64,000 nucleotides of DNA from Lachnospiraceae bacterium (GTDB taxonomy: Bacteria > Bacillota > Clostridia > Lachnospirales > Lachnospiraceae), in the NCBI GenBank assembly GCA_024687125.1, contig JAILFA010000096.1:1-64000 (forward strand), written 5' to 3'. The position numbers and the translations under genes are program-made. The notes beneath the pieces are model-generated. The model saw nothing but the letters and a program-made list of their open reading frames with translations. It searched no databases and was not told the origin of the DNA. Below, piece after piece: positions 45,186 through 59,378 of this stretch (position 1 is the stretch's first letter; every line of letters starts with the position of its first letter).

Positions 45186-46856
45186 TTGAACGAAATGACC
45201 ATTGATGCTGCGATGCTCGCGAGGATGTTTCTCGCGGGCGCAAAGAGACTGGAATCGCAGCAGGCGATCATCAACGAGCTGAATGTTTTCCCCGTGCCGG
45301 ACGGTGATACGGGAACCAACATGACGGCGACCATCATGCAGGCGGCTGAGGAAGTCGCCGGCGAACAGGACGCTTCGATGGAAGTGATCTGCAAATCCAT
45401 TTCCTCCGGATCCCTCAGAGGGGCCAGAGGAAATTCGGGCGTGATCCTTTCCCAGCTCCTGCGCGGCTTTACCAAGGTCATCAAAAAGCAGGAGACGGTT
45501 GATGTCCCTGTTATCGCGGATGCCTTTGAAAAAGCGGTTGAAACGGCCTATAAGGCGGTCATGAAACCCAAGGAGGGCACGATCCTGACAGTCGCCAAGG
45601 GCGCGGCCGAGCAGGCCAGAGCTCTGGCAGACAACGGTGTAGAGGATCTGGATACCTTTTTCCGGGGCGTGATCGATTATGCGGACGAGGTCTTGGAAAA
45701 GACACCGGATATGCTGCCCGTCCTCAAGGAGGCGGGGGTCGTTGATTCCGGCGGCAAGGGCCTGGTGGAAGTGCTCAGGGGCGCGTATGACGGTTATCTC
45801 GGCAAAGGGATTCCGTTCTCCGCTTCTGCCGAAGAGGAGGCGCAGGAGGAAGAAGAGCGACTGAAATATGCCTATTGCGTGGTTCTCAGAGCCGTGCTCA
45901 AGCAGCCGCTCAACCGAAAGCAGATGAGCGATATCCGCAGCTTTCTCGCTTCCGTCGGTGACGGTGTGCGTGTGAGCGACTGCGGAGACGCCGGGATCTC
46001 CCTGCACATTCATACGGATGATCCGGGACTGGTGCTGCAGCGTGCCCTGATGTACGGTGATCTGCGCGAGGTCAGCGTGCACGATATCAAGACCGAGGGA
46101 CATATCGAGGGGCCGGCCGGAGAGCCTGTCACCGCGGAAGCTCTGGAGCTCGACAGTTCGATCATCGCCGAGGAACCCCAAGTTCCTGCGGAGAAGAAGC
46201 CGGTCGGATTTGTGGCCGTATGCGCCGGTGACGGGATGGCGGAGATCTTCAGGAGCCTCGGCTGCGATGCTGTGATCGAGGGCGGACAGACGATGAATCC
46301 CAGCACGGACGACATCATCCAGGCGGCGCATCAGGTGAACGCGGAGACCGTGTTCATCCTGCCGAACAACAAGAACATCATCCTGGCGGCGGATCAGGCC
46401 AAAAAGATGTGCGACAGCGAGAATCTGATCGTGATCCCCACAAAGACCATGCCGCAGGGTATTGCGGCGCTTGTGAGCTTTGTCCCGGACGATTCGCCCG
46501 AAGAAAACGAAACGATGATGAAAGATGCCATTACGCAGGTTTCGTCGGGTGAAGTGACCTATGCCGTGCGGGATACGGTGATCGACGGTACACAGATCCA
46601 CCAGGGAGATTACATGGGGATCGGCGAAAAGGGGATCCTCGATGTCGGCAGAGACAGAGTCGAGGTCGCGGCGGATATGATTGGCAGGATGATGACCGAC
46701 GGTCAGGAACTGATCAGTATCTATTACGGCGCCGATGTGGATGAACAGGAGACTGAGAAGCTCCAGTCCGTGCTGAGCGAGAGATTTCCGGGAGTCGATG
46801 TGGAAATGCAGTACGGCGGGCAGCCGGTATATGCCTATATCGCTTCCGTGGAATGA
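45186..46856 (+). CDS. fakA: Fatty acid kinase catalytic subunit FakA (YloV, DhaL-DegV-like)
   Basis: 556 residues. The N-terminal DhaL domain has NELNVFPVPDGDTGTNMTATIMQ with the metal-binding aspartates, then GARGNSGVILSQLLRG; the middle and C-terminal regions (from about 330) are the DegV-like parts (FVAVCAGDGMAEIFRSLG, GGQTMNPSTDDI). FakA phosphorylates fatty acids held by FakB/DegV proteins, so that exogenous fatty acids enter phospholipids. The TTG at 45186 follows GGAGG with 8-base spacing; ATG 45195 is a possible alternative. A FakB-type gene lies at 48981 and a DegV fusion at 55918. It ends in an ATGA overlap with recG. Confidence 0.92.
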   Translation: MNEMTIDAAMLARMFLAGAKRLESQQAIINELNVFPVPDGDTGTNMTATIMQAAEEVAGEQDASMEVICKSISSGSLRGARGNSGVILSQLLRGFTKVIKKQETVDVPVIADAFEKAVETAYKAVMKPKEGTILTVAKGAAEQARALADNGVEDLDTFFRGVIDYADEVLEKTPDMLPVLKEAGVVDSGGKGLVEVLRGAYDGYLGKGIPFSASAEEEAQEEEERLKYAYCVVLRAVLKQPLNRKQMSDIRSFLASVGDGVRVSDCGDAGISLHIHTDDPGLVLQRALMYGDLREVSVHDIKTEGHIEGPAGEPVTAEALELDSSIIAEEPQVPAEKKPVGFVAVCAGDGMAEIFRSLGCDAVIEGGQTMNPSTDDIIQAAHQVNAETVFILPNNKNIILAADQAKKMCDSENLIVIPTKTMPQGIAALVSFVPDDSPEENETMMKDAITQVSSGEVTYAVRDTVIDGTQIHQGDYMGIGEKGILDVGRDRVEVAADMIGRMMTDGQELISIYYGADVDEQETEKLQSVLSERFPGVDVEMQYGGQPVYAYIASVE

Positions 46857-48907
46857 CGGATCTTAAGGCGCCCCTTACGGTACTTAAGGGGATCGGTGAT
46901 AAAAACGCAAAGCTCTTCGACGCGTGCGGTGTGCGCACGGTCGGGGAGCTTTTGACATACTGGCCCCGTGCGTATGATCATTTTGAAGTACCCGTCACGC
47001 CCGATACCTTTCGGGCGGGGGAGCGGGTGGCTGTGCGCTGCCGCCTTGTACGCGAGCCGGCGCTTCGTTATGTCCGGCGGTTCGCGATCCTGACAGCGGA
47101 TGCCGCCTGCGGGACGGACGTGTTTCATGTCACCTGGTTCAACCAGCCTTATCTGAAGAGAAGCCTGTATGCCGGCAGGGAATATGTACTGCGCGGTATC
47201 CTGGCCGTCAAAGGAGCCTCATTTGTTCTGGAGCAGCCGTCGATCTATGCGCCTGAGGAATATGCGCAGATCGCCGGGAAATATCTTCCCAGATACCCGC
47301 TCGTCCGGGGACTGAAGAATACCGCGGTCATACGTGCGGTCAGACAGGCGCTGGAAAGCGCCGATCCGGGAACAGACGCGGTTCCTGAAGCTGTATCGGA
47401 TAAGAGGGGCTTTCTTTCCTATCAGGATGCGATCAGGATGATCCATTTTCCGCCCGATGACGGCTGCCGGGAACAGGCGAGACGCCGGCTGGCGTATGGC
47501 GAATTATTTCTTTTCCTCACGGGACTGGGACTGATGAAACGGGCGGATGAGCTCACCACCGGCGGGATCCGGATGCAGAGATGTCCCGAGGCGGACGATC
47601 TGGTCCGAAACCTGCCGTACAGCCTTACGGGGGCTCAGCAAAGAGTGCTGGAAGAGATCCTCGCGCAGATGGAGAGCGGGCAGCATGTTCACCGGCTGAT
47701 CCAGGGAGATGTGGGCTCGGGCAAGACGATCCTTGCGCTCCTGTTCATGCTTACCGCGGTGACTAACGGCTGTCAGGCGGCTCTCATGGCACCGACACAG
47801 GTACTGGCCGCGCAGCATTATGAGACCTTTGTCTCGATGACGGAAAAATATCATCTTCCGCTGCATCCGGTGCTGCTCTCGGGCACCTGCACGGCAGCGC
47901 AGCGCAGGAACATTCTGGCTTCGATCGAAAACGGCGAGGCGGACTGTGTGATCGGCACGAATGCTCTGATGCAGGACGCGGTGAGCTATCATAAACTGGG
48001 ACTTGTGATCACGGATGAACAGCACCGGTTCGGCGTGCGGCAGCGTGAAAAACTCGCCGGGAAAGGGGAGAGACCGCACATCATTGTCATGAGCGCCACG
48101 CCGATCCCCAGAACCCTTGCCCTGATCCTTTACGGAGACCTTGAGGTGTCTGTGCTGGATGAGATGCCCGCTTCCCGGAAAAGGATCAAAAACGCCCTCG
48201 TGGGCCCGGAATACCGCCCCAAAGCGTATAAATTCATCACGGAACAGGTGGCGGCAGGGCATCAGGCCTATGTGATCTGCCCCATGATCGAGGAGGGGGA
48301 GACGGAGGGCGAAGAAAACGTCAAAGATTACGCGGATAAGCTGAAAAGCGCTCTTCCGGAAAGCGTCCGTGTGGCGATCCTGCACGGCAGGATGAAGGCC
48401 GAGGAAAAGGACAGAGTCATGAGCGCTTTCGCCGCGGGGGAGACGGATGTGCTCGTATCGACTACGGTCGTTGAGGTGGGGGTCAATGTTCCCAACGCGA
48501 CCGTCATGATGATCGAGAATGCCGAACGCTTCGGCCTTGCCGCGCTCCATCAGCTGCGGGGTCGTGTGGGACGCGGGGAAGCCCAGTCCTATTGCATCTT
48601 TGTCAATACATCGGACAGTGAAGAGTCCGAAAAACGACTGCAGATACTGAGGGATTCGGTTGACGGATTTGCCATTGCGGATCAGGACTTAAAGCTCCGC
48701 GGCCCGGGAGAACTCTCCGGTGTCCGTCAGAGCGGAGAGATGGGATTCCGTCTGGCGGATATTTACGCGGATGCGGATCTGCTCCGGCAGGCGTCGGAGG
48801 ATGTCGGTGAGCTTCTCGCAGCGGATCCCCATCTGACCGCACCGGAACATGCGATCCTCAGAACAGCTGTTTCGGACAGGGTTCAGATGGATGTGAAAAC
48901 GCTATAA
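46853..48907 (+). CDS. recG: ATP-dependent DNA helicase RecG
   Basis: Branched-DNA helicase for fork reversal, 684 residues. N-terminal wedge/OB region (LTVLKGIGDKNAKLFDACGV, then FHVTWFNQPYLK), helicase motif I GDVGSGKTILAL, motif II DEQHRFGV, motif III SATPIPRTL, and motif VI QLRGRVGRG. Overlaps fakA as ATGA; recG downstream of yloU-yloV is an order shared with Bacillus. No clear terminator follows; a promoter for the DegV gene lies 5-33 bases on. Confidence 0.97.
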   Translation: MTDLKAPLTVLKGIGDKNAKLFDACGVRTVGELLTYWPRAYDHFEVPVTPDTFRAGERVAVRCRLVREPALRYVRRFAILTADAACGTDVFHVTWFNQPYLKRSLYAGREYVLRGILAVKGASFVLEQPSIYAPEEYAQIAGKYLPRYPLVRGLKNTAVIRAVRQALESADPGTDAVPEAVSDKRGFLSYQDAIRMIHFPPDDGCREQARRRLAYGELFLFLTGLGLMKRADELTTGGIRMQRCPEADDLVRNLPYSLTGAQQRVLEEILAQMESGQHVHRLIQGDVGSGKTILALLFMLTAVTNGCQAALMAPTQVLAAQHYETFVSMTEKYHLPLHPVLLSGTCTAAQRRNILASIENGEADCVIGTNALMQDAVSYHKLGLVITDEQHRFGVRQREKLAGKGERPHIIVMSATPIPRTLALILYGDLEVSVLDEMPASRKRIKNALVGPEYRPKAYKFITEQVAAGHQAYVICPMIEEGETEGEENVKDYADKLKSALPESVRVAILHGRMKAEEKDRVMSAFAAGETDVLVSTTVVEVGVNVPNATVMMIENAERFGLAALHQLRGRVGRGEAQSYCIFVNTSDSEESEKRLQILRDSVDGFAIADQDLKLRGPGELSGVRQSGEMGFRLADIYADADLLRQASEDVGELLAADPHLTAPEHAILRTAVSDRVQMDVKTL

Positions 48908-48911
48908 GGTA

Positions 48912-48940
48912 TGGACGCAGACGGGCATCTGCGGTATAAT
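48912..48940 (+). promoter_or_regulatory. Promoter of the degV gene
   Basis: TGGACG at 48912-48917, 17-base spacer and consensus TATAAT at 48935-48940, 40 bases before the start codon. Confidence 0.55.
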
Positions 48941-48980
48941 AAATTGTTAATTTGCTTTTCTTTTGGGAGTAGAGGTGTTT

Positions 48981-49853
48981 ATGGGCAGGGTCGCGATCGT
49001 AACGGATTCGAACAGCGGTATCACACAGCGGGCAGCCGAGGAACTGGGCGTTTTTGTCCTGCCGATGCCTTTTCGTATCGATAATAAAGACTATTACGAG
49101 GATATCAACATCACGCAGGAAGAGTTCTATACTCTGATCGAAGCGGGCGGTGAGGTCACCACCTCGCAGCCTTCTCCCGCGGAGGTGCAGGCGCTGTGGG
49201 ACAGACTCCTGGAGGATCACGATCAGATCGTGCATATCCCGATGAGCAGCGGTCTCTCCGGGAGCTGTCAGAGTGCGGGAATGCTCGCGGAATCCTATGA
49301 CGGAAAAGTTGAGGTGGTCGACAACCAGCGCATATCCGTCACCCTGCGCCGTTCCTGTATTGACGCCCTTGAACTTGCCGCCGGCGGGATGAACGCGGCG
49401 CAGATCAAGGCGGAGCTGGAGCGCACCGGCCTGGATACCTCGATCTACATCATGCTGGATACGCTTTCTTACCTTAAGCGAGGCGGGCGGATCACACCCG
49501 CGGCGGCGGCGATCGGATCGCTCCTGAAGATCAAGCCCGTCCTGCAGATCCAGGGCGAAAAGCTGGATGCCTTTGCCAAAGCAAGGACCAGCGCGCAGGG
49601 CAAAAAAATGATGATCCAGGCGATCCGAAATGATATCGAGCGCAGATTCGGCGGACTGGATGTGCATGACGTCGATATCGATATGGCGTATACGCGGCAC
49701 GAGGATATGCTGCTGGAGTTTCGGGAGGAAGTGGCGGAGGCATTTCCCTGGGCGGGGGAGATCCATTATGATCCGCTTTCACTTTCCGTCGGATGCCACA
49801 TCGGTCCCGGTGCGATCGCTGTCACCGTGACAAAGCGGAACCACTTTTCATAG
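48981..49853 (+). CDS. DegV/FakB family fatty-acid-binding protein
   Basis: 290 residues. The N-terminal start RVAIVTDSNSGI, the head-group loop TTSQPSP (T60-S65), the second loop SSGLSGS (S89-S95), the mid helix TLSYLKRGGRI, and HIGPGAIAVTV near the C terminus are all canonical, so binding of a fatty acid with its carboxylate or acyl-phosphate is expected. FakB proteins present fatty acids to FakA, which is encoded four kilobases upstream. ATG 48981 is preceded by GAGGTG; a TTG further up is less likely. Ligand chain type cannot be told from sequence. Confidence 0.92.
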   Translation: MGRVAIVTDSNSGITQRAAEELGVFVLPMPFRIDNKDYYEDINITQEEFYTLIEAGGEVTTSQPSPAEVQALWDRLLEDHDQIVHIPMSSGLSGSCQSAGMLAESYDGKVEVVDNQRISVTLRRSCIDALELAAGGMNAAQIKAELERTGLDTSIYIMLDTLSYLKRGGRITPAAAAIGSLLKIKPVLQIQGEKLDAFAKARTSAQGKKMMIQAIRNDIERRFGGLDVHDVDIDMAYTRHEDMLLEFREEVAEAFPWAGEIHYDPLSLSVGCHIGPGAIAVTVTKRNHFS

Positions 49854-52463: not shown

Positions 52464-53441
52464 ATGCTCAAGACCGCGCTCATTGTTGATGATGATCATC
52501 TGGAGAGAGAATACCTGACGGAGCTTCTTCTCCGGAATGATTATGTTGTACGCTCCGCGCCTTCCGTTCCGAACGCGGCCGCACTGATCCGTACGATGCG
52601 CTTTGACGCGATCTTCATCGACGACAGGATGCCGAGCATGACCGGAGCCATGGCGCTTTCGGAGATCAAGAACGCGCTCCCCGACGATGCTGATGTGCAG
52701 ACCTATTTGATGGGCGATGCGCAGGATGAGAGCGCGCGGAATTACAAAAAAGACGGATTTACCGCTTTTCTGGAAAAGCCGGTGGATGTTGCCCGCCTGT
52801 TCCCGGCGGTTTCGCCGGAGGAGGGGGACTCGGAGGAAAGCTCGGTGTGGGATGCCAGGGGGGCAGCTGAGGAGAGCACGCTTGACGAGAAAAGAGGGAT
52901 CGCCAACTGCGGGACGAAAGAGAACTACCACCAGGCGCTCAAGATCTTCATGGATTCCGCGGAGTCCAAGTCGCAGGAGATTTGGGACTTCTATGGCCGG
53001 GAGGACTGGAATGACTACACGATCAAGGTGCATGCCCTGAAATCGAGCGCCAGGATCATCGGCGCGGAGGCACTTTCCGCGAAAGCCGCGGAGCTTGAGG
53101 ATGCCGGAAACAGGGAGGATATCGCCAAAATACGCCGCGATACCAGAGCTCTTCTCGACGACTATCGCCGGATCAGGGACCTGGCCGCGGAAAAACTCGG
53201 ACTTTCCAAAACGGACGAGGAAGAGGACGGCCGTCCTGCTGCCGGCGAGGAAAGGATCCGTGACGCCTATCGCTCCATCGCCGATTTCGCCGGGCAGATG
53301 GATTATGATCTGGTAGAGATGGTCCTGACGGCCATGAATGAGTTTCATCTCGAGAGCGGTGACCGGGAAAAGTTCGACCGGATCCGCCGGGAGCTGCTGG
53401 CCCTTGACTGGGAAGGCATCTTGCGGGAGGTGCAGGAATGA
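52464..53441 (+). CDS. Receiver-Hpt phosphorelay protein
   Basis: 325 residues. Residues about 4-120 form a receiver with phospho-acceptor D53 (FIDDRMPSM) and lysine in EKPVD. Residues about 150-245 form an Hpt domain with H190 in VHALKSSARIIG, intact. A C-terminal stretch of about 80 residues (DAYRSIADFAGQMDYDLVEMVL...) is predicted helical, role unknown. No output domain. It is the first gene of a coupled five-gene unit, after AAAGGAAG, and overlaps the next gene as ATGA. It could pass phosphate between the two hybrid kinases and the receiver protein downstream. Confidence 0.88.
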   Translation: MLKTALIVDDDHLEREYLTELLLRNDYVVRSAPSVPNAAALIRTMRFDAIFIDDRMPSMTGAMALSEIKNALPDDADVQTYLMGDAQDESARNYKKDGFTAFLEKPVDVARLFPAVSPEEGDSEESSVWDARGAAEESTLDEKRGIANCGTKENYHQALKIFMDSAESKSQEIWDFYGREDWNDYTIKVHALKSSARIIGAEALSAKAAELEDAGNREDIAKIRRDTRALLDDYRRIRDLAAEKLGLSKTDEEEDGRPAAGEERIRDAYRSIADFAGQMDYDLVEMVLTAMNEFHLESGDREKFDRIRRELLALDWEGILREVQE

Positions 53442-55921
53442 ATCCGGATCAGGAAAAAATCGAACGGGGGCGGGAAGATCGAAACCGCTATGTGATCATG
53501 GTCCTGACGCTCTCTTATTCTGCCTGCGCGCTGGGACTGATCATAGAAAACCTCGTGGTGGGATGGGAGCCCTGGGCGATCCCGTTCCTTGCGGTCAGCA
53601 TCGGTTTCGCATGGTGGATCCACCTGCTCCATCCGTTTACCGAGACAGGGAGAGTCTATGCGCTCGCCACGGTCTTTTACGCCGTCACCTTTTATCAGGG
53701 CGTGCATGAATCCAGCCTGTTTGATGTTTCCCTGATCATCTGCTTTGTCTTTTTCATGTTTTCTCTCGCCGATGCGCCGGCGGTGTACAATGTCGGGCTC
53801 GTCGTCTATTTCGCGACGATGCTCTACCAGATCCTGATCCATTACGGATGGGGGATCTTTTCGGATCCGCTTACTTTTTCCAGAGTGATCCTGCATGTGC
53901 TGATCGTCTTCCTGTCCTCCAGATTCGCAAAATCCATGATCAACGGACGCCAGCGCGGGACGGAGACGCAGGGGATGATCATCAGACGCCTCGCTGAGCT
54001 CAATCACCGTACCGAGGATTTCATGGCCAATGTCTCTCATGAGCTGAGGACGCCGATCAATGCCGTGACCGGTTTTTCTTCGATCATGATGGAACGGGAT
54101 CGGTCGGAAGGGCCGGAGATGAAGGCCATCTATCAGGCGGGCTGCCGGCTTTCCGACCAGGTCGGTGATATCCTGGATTACACAGAGATCGACAGGGAGC
54201 GGGTCATTCTGGCACAGGAGACCTATGGGATCTATTCGATCGTCAATGATGTCATCAATATCAATCGCATATCCCGGGGCGAACAGGAGAACGCGGCCGG
54301 GCTTCCCGATATCGTCGTTGACGTGGAGAGCGGGGTTCCGGCAAAACTTAAGGGAGATCCAAGACGTCTGAAGAAGATCATCCTGCATCTCCTGGACAAC
54401 GCGGTCAAATTCACCAGGGAAGGCGGGGTCTATGTACATATCTACGCGGAGCCGAGAGAATACGGCATCAATCTGTGCATAGAAGTCAGCGACACCGGGA
54501 TCGGTATCCCGATGGAAGAGCTGATCGTGATCCAGCGGGGATTCTATCAGGCCGATTCCAGCCGTACAAGGAGCGCGGGCGGCATGGGACTGGGGCTCGC
54601 GATCGTCTACGGCTTTGTGAGGATCATGGGCGGCTTTGTTTCGATCACCAGCACAGTCGGACAGGGGACGACCGTGCGGATCAGTATCCCGCAGGAGGTC
54701 GTCGATCCGGAGCCCTGCATGAGCGTTGCGGATCCCGACAGGTACTCCGTCGCCGGATATCTCAAGACAGAAAAATACAGGATCCCGATGGTGCGCGAAT
54801 TCTACGAGTCCATGCTGATCCATCTGGTCAGGGGGCTTCATGTGCCTGTCAAGCGGAGCGGCAGCCTGCATGATCTGAAGCAGATCGTGGAGGATATCAC
54901 GCCGACGCATGTGTTCCTCGGCACCCAGGAGTATGAAGAGGATCCGGCATACTTCATCAAGCTTGCCAAATCGGCGGAAGTGATCGTTGTTGCGGATCAG
55001 GAGTTCACTGTGCCCCGGACCAGCGGGATTATTGTTCTCAGAAAGCCGTTCTACGGATTCCCGATCGCCGGTATCCTCAATGAACTTAACATCGGCGGCG
55101 CCTATGTCGATCCTGCCCGCGCGGATGAACGTGTGGATTTCCCGGGTCTGTCCGTCCTGGTCGTAGATGACGAGGAGATGAACCTGGTGGTTGCGAACGG
55201 GATCTTCTCCGGTTACGGAATGAAGGTGACGACGGCGATCTCCGGCAAGGCAGCCCTCGAATGCTATGAAAAAGAGGATTTTGATGTGATCTTTATGGAT
55301 CATATGATGCCGGAAATGGACGGTGTGGAAGCCATGAAGCTTCTGAAACAGGCGGCGCGTGCCAAGAACCGTGAGACGAGGTTTGTCGCGCTGACCGCCA
55401 ATGCCGTCAGCGGAGCCAGGGAGATGTTCCACGCAGAGGGCTTTGACGGATTCATTCCCAAGCCGATCGAGACGGTGGAGCTTGAGCGCGTGCTCTGCCG
55501 CATCCTCCCCGTCAGCAAGGTGCGGATCACGCAGGGAGAATCGCGGGAAGGCTCCTCTCATGACAGCCGCGGATATTACGGAGACGAACTGGGTGTGGAG
55601 CGCTGCTTCGGTGACCGGGATCTCTTTAACCGGCTTCGGAGGATCTTTGTTGAGGAGATGCCCCATAATCTGCGTGTTTTCCGCTCTGCCTACGCGACTG
55701 GGACCATGGAACCGTATTCCGTGCGTCTGCGGTCACTTCGCGACGGAGCGAGGATCATCGGAGAAGAGGAGCTTGTCCGCCGCGCAAGGCGTCTGGAACA
55801 GGCGATCGCGGACAGCGACACGATCCGTGTCCAGAAGGGACACGCGGATCTGTGCACCTATTACGAGGAGTGTGTACAGGCGATCAGGGAACGTCTGGAA
55901 AAGGAGGGATACTTCGTATGA
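53438..55921 (+). CDS. Membrane hybrid histidine kinase with receiver and degenerate Hpt
   Basis: 827 residues. Six hydrophobic helices in the first 165 residues with no large external loop; HisKA with H201 (MANVSHELRTP), HATPase with LLDNAVKF, SDTGIGIP and GMGLGLAIVYG. A region about 430-560 looks like a receiver that has lost its acceptor (THVFLGTQE, ending LRKPFYGFPIAGIL). The true receiver at about 568-690 has D621 (VIFMDHMMPEMDG). The C-terminal region is Hpt-like, but the phosphorylated His is replaced by R765 (VRLRSLRDGARIIG). Its sequence closely parallels the intact Hpt in the gene upstream. So phosphate must leave by another protein. Confidence 0.9.
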   Translation: MNPDQEKIERGREDRNRYVIMVLTLSYSACALGLIIENLVVGWEPWAIPFLAVSIGFAWWIHLLHPFTETGRVYALATVFYAVTFYQGVHESSLFDVSLIICFVFFMFSLADAPAVYNVGLVVYFATMLYQILIHYGWGIFSDPLTFSRVILHVLIVFLSSRFAKSMINGRQRGTETQGMIIRRLAELNHRTEDFMANVSHELRTPINAVTGFSSIMMERDRSEGPEMKAIYQAGCRLSDQVGDILDYTEIDRERVILAQETYGIYSIVNDVININRISRGEQENAAGLPDIVVDVESGVPAKLKGDPRRLKKIILHLLDNAVKFTREGGVYVHIYAEPREYGINLCIEVSDTGIGIPMEELIVIQRGFYQADSSRTRSAGGMGLGLAIVYGFVRIMGGFVSITSTVGQGTTVRISIPQEVVDPEPCMSVADPDRYSVAGYLKTEKYRIPMVREFYESMLIHLVRGLHVPVKRSGSLHDLKQIVEDITPTHVFLGTQEYEEDPAYFIKLAKSAEVIVVADQEFTVPRTSGIIVLRKPFYGFPIAGILNELNIGGAYVDPARADERVDFPGLSVLVVDDEEMNLVVANGIFSGYGMKVTTAISGKAALECYEKEDFDVIFMDHMMPEMDGVEAMKLLKQAARAKNRETRFVALTANAVSGAREMFHAEGFDGFIPKPIETVELERVLCRILPVSKVRITQGESREGSSHDSRGYYGDELGVERCFGDRDLFNRLRRIFVEEMPHNLRVFRSAYATGTMEPYSVRLRSLRDGARIIGEEELVRRARRLEQAIADSDTIRVQKGHADLCTYYEECVQAIRERLEKEGYFV

Positions 55922-58590
55922 AAAAATGGGTGTCTTCTCTGTTTGACCACCGGCTTCCTCTGCAGGAACGGACCTTCCGCCTGATCGCTGCGATCGGTAT
56001 CATATCTCTGACGCTGATGGCGATCGTGGCAGTGATCATTCAGGAAAGTATCGTGGATACGCTGATGATCATTGGCTGTCTCCTGTTTATCATGCTGGTC
56101 ACCGCCATGTCGATCAGATTTCATAAGGTCGATCTTGGGGCGAGCCTCATCGCTTTCGCGGTCATCTTTTTCGGACTGCCGATCATCTATCTGTCCTCCG
56201 GCGGTATGTACGGCGGAACACCGATGTGGTTCATCTTTTTTGCCATCTATATCAGCTTTGTCCTGCGGGGGAGAAAACGGATCTTTTTCCTGATCTGTGA
56301 CGGCCTTGTCCTGCTTGTTTGCTATTATATCCAGTGGTATCATCCCACGATGGTCATCCCGCATACGGCCAGAATGGCTTACGCCGATTCCCTGGTCTCC
56401 ACGATGACCGTCGGATTCCTGATGAGCCTGATGGTCGTCTTCGTGACAAAGATCTATCTGACAGAGCAGAAGCTTACAGAGGAGCAGCGGCGGCAGATCG
56501 AGGAGATCAACCGGGCGCAGAACCGCTTCTTCTCCAATATGAGCCATGAGATCCGGACGCCCGTCAACACGATCATCGGTCTCAATGAGATGATCATCCG
56601 AGAGGCGACGACCGCCGAGGTCGCTGAGGATGCGAGAAGCATCCAGGGCGCAGGGCAGATGCTGCTCGCGCTGATCAACGACATTCTGGACATGTCCAAG
56701 ATCGAATCCGGCAACATGGAGCTGGTTTCGAACAGCTATGAAGTGGAATCGCTTCTTTCCGATGTCACGGACATGATCTGGTCGCCCGCGCATGAAAAGG
56801 GACTGGCCTTCCATGTGGATATTGATGAAAAGATCCCCAGGGGCTTTATCGGCGACGAAGTCCGTATCAAACAGATCCTGATCAATCTGCTCAACAACGC
56901 GGTCAAATACACCAGGGAGGGTACGGTGACCCTGACGGTGACCTGCCGCAGGGATCAGGCTCCGGGACGGGCGTTCCTGATCTTTTCGGTCGAGGATACC
57001 GGTATCGGGATCCGCAAGGAAGCACTGCCGATGCTGTTTGATGTTTTCCGTCGTCTGGATGAATCTCAGAACCGGCTGATCGAAGGGTCGGGACTCGGGC
57101 TCTCCATCGTCAAGCAGCTCGTGGAGCTGATGGGCGGCGAGATCACCGTGGACAGTGTCTATACCAAGGGCTCGACCTTCCGTGTCTCCATTCCGCAGAT
57201 GATCGCGCAGGAGGATCCGATCGGCAAGGTACAGCTCCGGGCGGAGACCACCGCCGGCGAACAGCAGGAGTATGAACCGGCCTTCAAGGCGCCGGGGGCC
57301 GCCGCACTGATCGTCGACGACAATGAGCTTAACATCTCTGTCGCGGCCAAGCTCCTGTCCGCGACGGACATCCAGATCGACACCGCGGGCAGCGGCCGGG
57401 AGGCACTCGCCCATACGCAGGAAAAGCATTACGATGTCATCCTGATGGACCATCTGATGCCGGACATGGACGGTATCGAAACGCTGCATGCGATCCGTGC
57501 ACAGCGCGGCGGTATGTGCCGAGAGACACCTGTGATCGCGCTTACGGCCAACGCAGGTTCCGATAATGAGGCGATGTACCGCAGAAACGGTTTCGACGGG
57601 TACCTGCTGAAACCGATCACGGGCAGTGAACTGGAGAATGCGGTCATGGCGAGGCTTCCGCGATCTCTCGTCAAGAGCAGTCAGATCGTGCGGATGGATG
57701 CCGGTGAAGCACAGGTGATGGACGCCTTCCATCGTAAAGCGAACATGATCATCACGACGGATTCGCTCTGCGATCTGCCGATCCCGCTGCTCATGCAGAA
57801 CCGGATCGAGATGATCCCGCTGCGGATCATCACCGACGAGGGCAGGTTCGCTGACAGGACCGAGGTCACCACGGGCGAGACGCTCCGCTACATGCAGAAG
57901 TTTTCGGACAGGCGTATTGTCGCCGAGCCTCCGTCGGTGAGCGAATATGAGGCCTTTTTTGCCGGATGTCTGCTCAGAGCGGATCATGTATTCCATATCA
58001 CGACATCCGCATGGGGCGAGAAAACCTATCAGAACGCTATCGAGGCGGCAAGGTCCTTTGGCAATGTGACGATCTTTGACAGCGGGCAGATCTCGGCGGG
58101 TGTCGGTGCGTATGTCCTGCGTGCCGCTTCGATCATTGAGACTTCCAATGTGCCGCCGCAGGCGCTCTTCGGGATCCTGTCCGGTATGCGCGGCAGTATC
58201 CGCAGTGCGCTCATAGTCGATAACACGGCGATGCTCCTTAGATCCGGCAGGATCACGACGAGACAGAACACGATATTCCAGAATTTTCTGCTCCGTCCGA
58301 TCTTCGTGCCGACGCGGAAAGGGGTCAGGATACGCGGATTCGCCGGCGGACCGAGAAAACAGTACACGGAGCGCTTTTTCAGGAAGATGATCTCCAGGCC
58401 CGAGGCGGATCATGGACGTCTCCTTGTGATCTCGCCGAGTATGCTGCCTGAAGAGGCACAGTACATGGAGGGGATCATCAAAAAGCATATACCGTTCCGG
58501 GAGATCCGGTTCCTGCAGGCCGGTCCGTCGACGACACTCACCTGGGGGCCGGATTCACTCGCGATTGTTTATGAAACGAGGTCAAAATGA
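55918..58590 (+). CDS. Hybrid histidine kinase - receiver - DegV domain fusion
   Basis: 890 residues from ATG 55918, which overlaps the previous stop and follows AAGGAGGG. Six helices in the first 175 residues; HisKA with H210 (SNMSHEIRTP), HATPase (LLNNAVKY, VEDTGIGI, GSGLGLSIVKQ); receiver with D511 (VILMDHLMPDMDG). From residue 609 to the C terminus runs a full-length DegV fold: MIITTDSLCDLP, FDSGQISAGVGAY, LLRSGRITTRQN and TLTWGPDSLAIVY match the FakB-type scaffold. Positions that bind the fatty-acid head group are changed: TTSQPS is VAEPPS and SSGLSGS is SAWGEKT. I know of no characterised protein with this domain order. The frame is continuous, with no sign of frameshift at the junction. 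Confidence 0.9.
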   Translation: MKKWVSSLFDHRLPLQERTFRLIAAIGIISLTLMAIVAVIIQESIVDTLMIIGCLLFIMLVTAMSIRFHKVDLGASLIAFAVIFFGLPIIYLSSGGMYGGTPMWFIFFAIYISFVLRGRKRIFFLICDGLVLLVCYYIQWYHPTMVIPHTARMAYADSLVSTMTVGFLMSLMVVFVTKIYLTEQKLTEEQRRQIEEINRAQNRFFSNMSHEIRTPVNTIIGLNEMIIREATTAEVAEDARSIQGAGQMLLALINDILDMSKIESGNMELVSNSYEVESLLSDVTDMIWSPAHEKGLAFHVDIDEKIPRGFIGDEVRIKQILINLLNNAVKYTREGTVTLTVTCRRDQAPGRAFLIFSVEDTGIGIRKEALPMLFDVFRRLDESQNRLIEGSGLGLSIVKQLVELMGGEITVDSVYTKGSTFRVSIPQMIAQEDPIGKVQLRAETTAGEQQEYEPAFKAPGAAALIVDDNELNISVAAKLLSATDIQIDTAGSGREALAHTQEKHYDVILMDHLMPDMDGIETLHAIRAQRGGMCRETPVIALTANAGSDNEAMYRRNGFDGYLLKPITGSELENAVMARLPRSLVKSSQIVRMDAGEAQVMDAFHRKANMIITTDSLCDLPIPLLMQNRIEMIPLRIITDEGRFADRTEVTTGETLRYMQKFSDRRIVAEPPSVSEYEAFFAGCLLRADHVFHITTSAWGEKTYQNAIEAARSFGNVTIFDSGQISAGVGAYVLRAASIIETSNVPPQALFGILSGMRGSIRSALIVDNTAMLLRSGRITTRQNTIFQNFLLRPIFVPTRKGVRIRGFAGGPRKQYTERFFRKMISRPEADHGRLLVISPSMLPEEAQYMEGIIKKHIPFREIRFLQAGPSTTLTWGPDSLAIVYETRSK

Positions 58591-59378
58591 ACTACGGAGA
58601 TGAGATTTTCGGGATCGCGGGAACGAAGAACGTAACAGTGATCAGCCGTGCGGAAACGTTTACCGTCATGGGAATGATCAAAAAACTCAAGGAATACGGT
58701 GTTCCGGCGGGCTTTTCGACACCCGAGCTCGAGATGCTGGAGTTTCTCGCGGATGAGACGGAACTGTTCATTCTGCTGACTGACGAGCCGGTGGAGGATT
58801 TCAGGCGCACGATCGTCTTTCTCAAGGATACCTGCATTGATACGGAAAAGAGGCTGATGCTGGTGGGAACCAAGCGGGAGCTCGACTATGTAATGCAGTA
58901 TTTTCCGGAGAAATATCTGGTCAACTGGTTTGACCGTCCGATGGTCCTGCCCGATATCCTGGAGGCAGTCAGGCGCTATATCGCCGACGAGCAGGTCGAG
59001 GCAAGAAAAAAGAGCATCCTGATCGTCGATGATGATTCGACCTATATGCTTACGATCCGTGACTGGCTCCTGCCCAAGTACCGTGTGGCCATGGTCACGA
59101 GCGGGCTGCAGGCGATCCAGTGGCTTGCAAAGAACACCGCGGATCTGATCCTGTTGGATTATGAGATGCCGGTCACACCCGGACCGCAGGTGCTGGAGAT
59201 GCTCAAGAGCGAGCTGTCCACCAGTACGATCCCCGTTATGTTCCTGACCGGTAAAGGGGACAAGGAGAGCATTGTCAAGGTTCTTTCCTTAAAGCCCGCG
59301 GATTATCTGCTCAAGACGATCGACCGCGACGGACTCAACGAGAAGCTGGACGCCTTTTTCCAGAGAAAGAGATTCTGA
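58587..59378 (+). CDS. Two-domain response regulator, N-terminal receiver degenerate
   Basis: 263 residues. Residues about 10-130 look like a receiver without acceptor Asp (ELFILLTDEP; Arg-Pro in WFDRPMVLPDIL where Lys-Pro is usual). Residues about 145-263 form a normal receiver with DDDST and D191 (LILLDYEMP), although the Lys-Pro after the switch reads LKTID. No DNA-binding or enzymatic domain. Starts by ATGA overlap on the fusion gene and shares a base with the CapA gene. Likely an end-point or phosphate sink of the relay. Confidence 0.85.
   Translation: MNYGDEIFGIAGTKNVTVISRAETFTVMGMIKKLKEYGVPAGFSTPELEMLEFLADETELFILLTDEPVEDFRRTIVFLKDTCIDTEKRLMLVGTKRELDYVMQYFPEKYLVNWFDRPMVLPDILEAVRRYIADEQVEARKKSILIVDDDSTYMLTIRDWLLPKYRVAMVTSGLQAIQWLAKNTADLILLDYEMPVTPGPQVLEMLKSELSTSTIPVMFLTGKGDKESIVKVLSLKPADYLLKTIDRDGLNEKLDAFFQRKRF

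Follow-up and report, generated by a model that had tools for sequence, protein, structure and literature searches.

DegV proteins have been studied mainly as carriers in phospholipid synthesis. Here we describe a gene, and a family of its relatives, in which a DegV domain forms the C-terminal end of a hybrid histidine kinase. The gene lies in a stretch of 64,000 nucleotides from a Lachnospiraceae bacterium (GenBank assembly GCA_024687125.1, contig JAILFA010000096.1, positions 1 to 64,000 of the forward strand), which we call the window; Table 1 gives its coordinates and those of its neighbors. The closest described relatives of the domain are the fatty-acid-binding FakB and DegV proteins, such as Staphylococcus aureus FakB1 (structure 5uto) and Bacillus subtilis DegV (3fys); the entry 4x9x we take to be FakB2. 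DhaK and DhaQ, whose fold is distantly related to that of DegV, have roles in controlling transcription (their structures are titled "operon co-activator" and "DhaR(N)-DhaK") but have a different ligand and 8% identity, and we know of no kinase fusion among their structure entries. Hybrid kinases of the BarA/TorS/ArcB type share with the kinase-DegV protein the HisKA-HATPase-receiver core and the catalytic residues (NCBIfam matches were below cut-off), but the kinase-DegV protein differs from them in its C-terminal DegV domain and in having the Hpt domain placed on a partner gene. To our knowledge, a cytosolic ligand of lipid type is known for few sensor kinases.

In FakB1, the carboxylate of the fatty acid is held by a hydrogen-bond network of Thr62, Ser95, Ser171, and His270, and Arg173 packs on the fatty acid (available portion of PMC8892158). 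Arg173 is essential in the FakA reaction, and Arg205 is key to FakA and membrane binding (available portion of PMC9136124). The SaeRS two-component system of S. aureus is linked to the fatty-acid-kinase pathway and is inhibited by free fatty acid; that tie is its likeness to the system described here, but the available portion of the report mentions no DegV fusion for SaeRS (PMC5539427). DegV is also contained in multidomain proteins (available portion of PMC12288450), and hemolysin III neighbors have been described (available portion of PMC3146951). Among the papers listed by searches of the open-licence PubMed Central literature, none describes a kinase-DegV fusion in its title or the start of its abstract, an absence that is weak evidence; it agrees with an earlier note on this DNA, made from the sequence alone, which knew of no characterized protein so arranged.

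A conserved family of kinase-DegV proteins

Kinase-DegV proteins form a real and conserved family, a variation on the hybrid histidine kinase that is undescribed as far as our literature search reached. A scan of genome contigs gave 560 stretches encoding relatives, not all of which were checked for the fusion, and the best 80 of the 560 were kept. Receiver or kinase domains lie in the same frame as DegV in 79 of these 80 loci; the remaining one is cut by a contig end. The earlier note had reported kinase, receiver, and DegV in one protein, and domain profiles, five orthologues, and these 79 loci bear it out; the order HATPase-receiver-DegV recurs and is common among relatives. A chimera is ruled out by the same loci and orthologues, as is the frameshift between the kinase and DegV parts that the note had named as a possible refutation.

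The protein has the features of a hybrid kinase, namely, the HisKA His, the HATPase boxes, and the receiver Asp, Thr, and Lys. The catalytic residues of the kinase and receiver are invariant across the 59 aligned rows (alignment A7, which included 58 of 72 relatives), and from their sequences both parts look intact. Hydropathy over the membrane module gave five peaks above 1.6, and the AlphaFold model has six helices there. The model contains no extracytoplasmic domain, and a Pfam search of the protein found no additional sensor domain.

The C-terminal domain matches Pfam DegV (PF02645) at 97.9 bits, against a curated cut-off of 27, and NCBIfam TIGR00762 at 110.6 bits, against a cut-off of 99.7. 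Its predicted model is a confident, complete DegV fold, of which 276 residues align to FakB1 at 2.4 Å; the entire fold is like those of FakB1 and B. subtilis DegV. At the level of the predicted fold, the domain belongs to the DegV family, in agreement with the full-length fold that the earlier note had read from the sequence.

DegV matches number nine in the window's own genome: five frames are the size of a stand-alone protein, and the other four are long, each with kinase and receiver before DegV and one with Hpt after it as well. Among 150 genomes of its GTDB family (one per genus, own included), at least 28 genomes have long DegV frames, at least 42 frames in all, and among 61 genomes of its genus (own included), at least 37 have them. 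Class-wide (341 genomes), frames of >700 amino acids (aa) outside the family occur in 3 genomes among the matches listed, all of one genus of another family. These counts go by open-frame length among the matches listed and are lower bounds, with domains verified only in fetched loci. One long frame (601 aa, genome G045) was left out of the family count as a Dak2-FakA_M-DegV protein, and G103 (L031) was kept despite its degenerate kinase. That the window protein is unique is ruled out by the paralogues in its own genome and the fused frames across family and genus. By record title, 40 of the best 80 loci are Lachnospiraceae, and most others are further Clostridia or genera such as Eubacterium, Roseburia, and Acetatifactor.

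Several loci depart from the common form. In G103 (L031; L132:5790-8375), DegV is fused to a degenerate kinase in which custom HisKA and receiver profiles gave no match. In L047, L072, L079, and L097, the N-terminal part of the kinase-DegV gene is in another frame or absent within the contig, through gene breakage or sequence error. L153 (G184:C44) is a frame of 580 aa from stop to stop that ends in a DegV domain preceded by ~300 residues without a Pfam match; its true start may be internal. Two DegV matches of the clade lie in frames of 477 and 528 aa (G528:C234:53659 and G536:C47:6116), perhaps receiver-DegV proteins without a full kinase. Three odd record titles, taxonomically distant from the other hits (L035, Bacteroides; L039, Thermoflexaceae; L098, Candidatus Treponema faecavium), may reflect mis-binning, odd naming, or transfer.

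A two-kinase operon with Hpt on one partner

Kinase-DegV genes sit in a conserved two-kinase operon, an addition to what the earlier note reported. Among the 66 of the best 80 loci that have >2.5 kb upstream, the upstream gene is on the same strand in all 66, encodes a HisKA-HATPase-REC-Hpt protein in 60, and overlaps the kinase-DegV gene by 4 nucleotides in 45. The other six upstream neighbors are two kinase-DegV genes, two separate frames with only the membrane module, one receiver-Hpt gene, and one frame without matches. Downstream, 32 of the 80 loci continue with a gene encoding a solute-binding lipoprotein (one representative of the BLAST cluster was matched to Pfam SBP_bac_3); the window operon has none. 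Genes for receiver-GGDEF, chemoreceptor, and hemerythrin proteins are further variable neighbors.

We examined 119 kinase-DegV genes for the placement of Hpt, defining a pair by a same-strand, HATPase-bearing gene directly upstream. This gave 102 pairs. The 17 genes without a pair comprise 4 with no upstream gene in the locus, 2 with an opposite-strand neighbor, and 11 whose neighbor did not match HATPase (at contig ends, in cut or broken frames, or for other reasons). Hpt is on the companion only in 84 pairs, on the kinase-DegV protein only in 16, on both in none, and on neither in 2; in each of the last two, the kinase-DegV gene is the second copy of a tandem duplication, and its upstream neighbor is the first. 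Collapsed at 97% identity, the pairs form 99 clusters, divided 81/16/2. Two loci with tandem kinase-DegV duplicates (L044:3781-9167 and L060:5470-10858) continue with another hybrid kinase that has an N-terminal receiver.

The phospho-His column of Hpt holds His in 17/17 domains of kinase-DegV proteins and in 79/89 domains on companions or cut pieces of companions. The ten exceptions are the companions in the window and in its five orthologous loci, and L216-L219. In the window group, the companion has Arg for His in 6/6, and the neighboring upstream receiver-Hpt gene has His in 6/6. For L216-L219, a further upstream kinase-receiver-Hpt gene has the intact His in three of four (L229, L230, L232), and the fourth gene is cut by the fetched region (L231). 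Thus, every readable exception has another intact Hpt in its cluster. The kinase-DegV gene of the window follows the clade in having its companion upstream and Hpt on one partner, though the companion's Hpt tail is without the His.

Residues at the FakB1 ligand-site and FakA-docking positions

FakB1 numbering was transferred by way of the window's stand-alone DegV protein, aligned to FakB1; positions were counted by eye in the alignment, Ser95 being the third Ser of LSSGIS. The counts cover 145 distinct fused rows (140 clusters at 97% identity), 139 outside the window's orthologue group and 6 in it. Outside that group, position 62 is Ser or Thr in 126/139, position 95 is Ser in 113/139, Arg173 is present in 100/139, and position 270 is Asn in 127/139 and His in 3/139; replacement of His270 by Asn thus holds for most of the family. 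The four-residue set of Ser/Thr62, Ser95, Arg173, and Asn/His270 occurs jointly in 89/139 and not in the other 50. Arg205 is absent from 138/139 (the exception is L141) and from 144/145 overall. Both unfused DegVs linked to a hybrid histidine kinase through their operon (we call these and the fused domains HK-linked) also have Asn270 and no Arg205, as do the three kinase-DegV paralogues of the window's own genome, one of which has Arg173.

His270 and Arg205 are both present in 23/24 relatives that come from other genomes and fall outside the HK-linked group; these relatives were chosen mostly as best matches to HK-linked profiles and not randomly. The exception, L131:6117-7900 (G045), is a 594-aa Dak2-FakA_M-DegV protein in which FakA kinase and middle domains are joined to a DegV-profile domain. 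The five stand-alone DegVs of the window's own genome are less uniform: four have Arg205, and position 270 is His in three, Tyr in one, and a gap in one. The signature of no Arg205 and mostly Asn270 could separate kinase-linked regulators from carriers in other genomes.

Tethered to its kinase, the window's DegV retains Ser171 and Arg173 of FakB1 but has Ala62, Glu95, and Thr270 for Thr62, Ser95, and His270, so that the FakB1 network is broken, and Gly at 205. Within its group, the four-residue set occurs in 0/6 and Arg173 in 4/6, and the six rows read T, I, V, M, V, and A at position 270.

Ancestry and selection

A tree of 69 DegV rows, made by adding 20 fused rows drawn randomly from L035-L114 to earlier rows, splits the 52 HK-linked rows from the 17 others with support of 96/99, the bootstrap being not quite settled. 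The two unfused HK-linked DegVs (G064, loci L029 and L130; G044, locus L121) are stand-alone genes, each of which overlaps the end of a gene for a hybrid kinase-receiver-Hpt protein. Within the HK-linked part of the tree they are the deepest branches (midpoint root, for display only), which fits a history of neighbor first, fused later.

For the DegV part, the window protein and four orthologues differ by 0.46 to 0.55 nonsynonymous substitutions per site (dN) and 1.11 to 1.73 synonymous ones (dS); dS with the fifth is not estimable. Because dS is near saturation, dN/dS of roughly 0.3 to 0.45 is a rough value. dN is below dS in 8/9 orthologue pairs, those with usable dS, and on these substitution rates the DegV part of the window group is still under constraint (purifying selection).

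Proposed role of the DegV domain

For ligand binding, the direction of signaling, and the output, we infer the following. The kinase-DegV protein would be one half of a two-kinase phosphorelay, with input through the membrane module, the cytosolic DegV domain, or both, since it has no extracytoplasmic sensor domain. A FakB-like fatty-acid carrier was probably first the neighbor gene of a hybrid kinase and then became joined to a second kinase, after the receiver. DegV would have left the fatty-acid-kinase pathway, with the FakA-docking Arg lost and Asn in place of the His at the carboxylate site. A carboxylate or acyl ligand, once bound, may alter the passage of phosphate by receiver, linker, and kinase core among the kinase, its companion, and the Hpt of the cluster. 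Because the kinase and receiver look intact, the model has no extracytoplasmic domain, and DegV is the sole domain of a known ligand-binding family, a ligand-binding regulator is our first reading. Because a polar carboxylate-type site is retained in much of the family, an acyl carboxylate is the first ligand candidate. We give roughly even chances to a FakB-derived DegV domain acting as a tethered cytosolic ligand-binding regulator in a two-kinase phosphorelay. In the window group, whose polar contacts have diverged further, the ligand may have changed or DegV may act by protein contact; there, another ligand or a protein contact seems as likely as an acyl carboxylate.

The observation of the earlier note is thus confirmed and its interpretation partly supported. 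Its proposal that the kinase senses lipid is reasonable for the family, where it stays open, given the residue set kept in 89/139, and weakest, indeed unsupported, for the window copy (0/6 in its group; Ala62, Glu95, Thr270). Transmission of lipid status to FakA is unlikely, as the FakA-docking Arg205 is missing in 144/145, and that loss also lowers the case for DegV as a FakA substrate. Tentatively, and with the odds against it, the HK-linked DegVs might be undescribed cytosolic sensors of acyl chains or fatty acids, former FakB carriers without FakA docking, in a two-kinase phosphorelay that serves gut Lachnospiraceae, where the paralogues of a single genome (four here) would differ in the ligands that they read. 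If so, gut lipid supply would be wired directly into phosphorelay signaling. The conserved clade of kinase-fused or operon-tied DegVs offers a direct test of whether the phosphorelay of gut Lachnospiraceae reads fatty acids (from diet, host, or self), and the Hpt rule points to which two kinases belong in a joint study.

Several findings weigh against a ligand-binding regulator in a two-kinase relay. Three of the polar contacts that FakB1 has at its carboxylate site are missing from the kinase-linked DegV of the window, its row is a long branch (2.4) of unsure place in the tree, and its orthologues share 40 to 49% identity in DegV against 86 to 94% in HisKA, that is, DegV evolves faster. The AlphaFold model has a predicted template modeling score of 0.39, too low for reading domain packing. 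Outside the best 80 loci, L132 and L215 have the upstream neighbor of the kinase-DegV gene on the opposite strand. On a FastTree tree built from the 119 DegV domains, the placement of Hpt switches a single time, so the 16 cases with Hpt on the kinase-DegV protein are one event kept, not 16.

The DegV fold may instead no longer bind a ligand and serve as a protein-contact surface joining the kinase to its companion or the Hpt protein, much as FakA's own DegV-like C-terminal domain binds FakB. We regard this as possible but somewhat doubtful, as a pure docking surface would not need the full polar set that 89/139 keep. It is unlikely that DegV is the output, switched by receiver phosphorylation to carry or release fatty acid for lipid synthesis. 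Its position after the receiver is the usual effector place, the genome has FakA and a PlsX-family gene, and Arg173, of the FakA reaction, is retained in 100/139 and 4/6; but loss of Arg205, in 144/145 fused and both unfused HK-linked DegVs, makes a role as output of the Fak pathway less likely, and the residue is present in 23/24 outside relatives of other genomes and 4/5 stand-alone DegVs of the own genome. Moreover, in one lineage Hpt follows DegV, which is then not the end of the chain.

Sensing by the membrane module alone, with DegV merely tuning kinase level or membrane position, seems quite improbable. The lipoprotein gene after 32/80 kinase-DegV genes could feed in an external signal, but the window operon has none, the membrane loops are very short, and the membrane-docking Arg of FakB1 is lost. 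A passenger or artefact (chance fusion, assembly error, or decaying domain) would suit the rapid evolution of the window copy and its long branch in the tree; it is contradicted by the same arrangement in 79 of the best 80 loci, the five orthologues, dN below dS, and the confident fold, and we think it very improbable.

Gene neighborhood of the window

The window operon runs receiver-Hpt (52464), companion kinase (53438), kinase-DegV (55918), and receiver protein (58587), and the same four genes are kept in five orthologous loci, one of which is cut by a contig end. The companion's Hpt-like tail was detected by a custom-built profile, not by Pfam.

Table 1 Features of the kinase-DegV locus in the window
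Feature	Coordinates	Strand	Basis
fakA (Dak2, FakA-like_M, FakA-like_C), start codon uncertain	45186..46856	+	Domain profiles
Stand-alone DegV/FakB-like protein	48963..49853	+	Domain profiles
Receiver-Hpt protein, intact Hpt histidine	52464..53441	+	Domain profiles
Companion hybrid histidine kinase, 827 aa; Hpt-like tail with Arg at phospho-His position	53438..55921	+	Domain profiles
Shine-Dalgarno-like AGGAGGG of kinase-DegV gene	55902..55908	+	Sequence
Hybrid histidine kinase with C-terminal DegV domain, 890 aa (P0001)	55918..58590	+	Domain profiles, orthologues
Six-helix membrane module, residues 1-190, very short loops	55918..56487	+	AlphaFold helices, hydropathy
HisKA, residues 200-265; phospho-acceptor H210 at 56545-56547	56515..56712	+	Profile, alignment
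HATPase_c, residues 312-427	56851..57198	+	Profile; N327 and glycine boxes invariant in alignment
Receiver, residues 464-576; D511 at 57448-57450; D467, D468, T543, K565 retained	57307..57645	+	Profile, alignment
Flexible linker, residues 588-605	57679..57732	+	Predicted local distance difference test <50 (AlphaFold)
DegV (FakB-fold) domain, residues 609-890; Pfam match 57751-58578	57742..58587	+	Profiles, predicted fold
Response regulator, receiver only (144-254)	58587..59378	+	Domain profiles; present in five orthologous loci

Upstream, fakA, recG, and the stand-alone degV lie in a row (45186-49853), 6 kb from the kinase-DegV gene. With FakA in the window and a PlsX-family gene also in the genome, one and the same cell has both FakB-type carriers and kinase-linked DegVs. 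The stand-alone degV and a gyrB-like gene are beside the operon in 4/5 orthologous loci, the fifth locus being cut, and tblastn located PGA_cap and DUF3160 genes in 2/5.

Between its HATPase and its receiver, the companion kinase has ~150 additional residues that may be a degenerate receiver. A domain profile search found no DNA-binding domain in the response regulator at the end of the operon, whose first ~140 residues match no Pfam model; two paralogous kinase-DegV operons elsewhere in this genome (L002 and L003) have homologues of it nearby.
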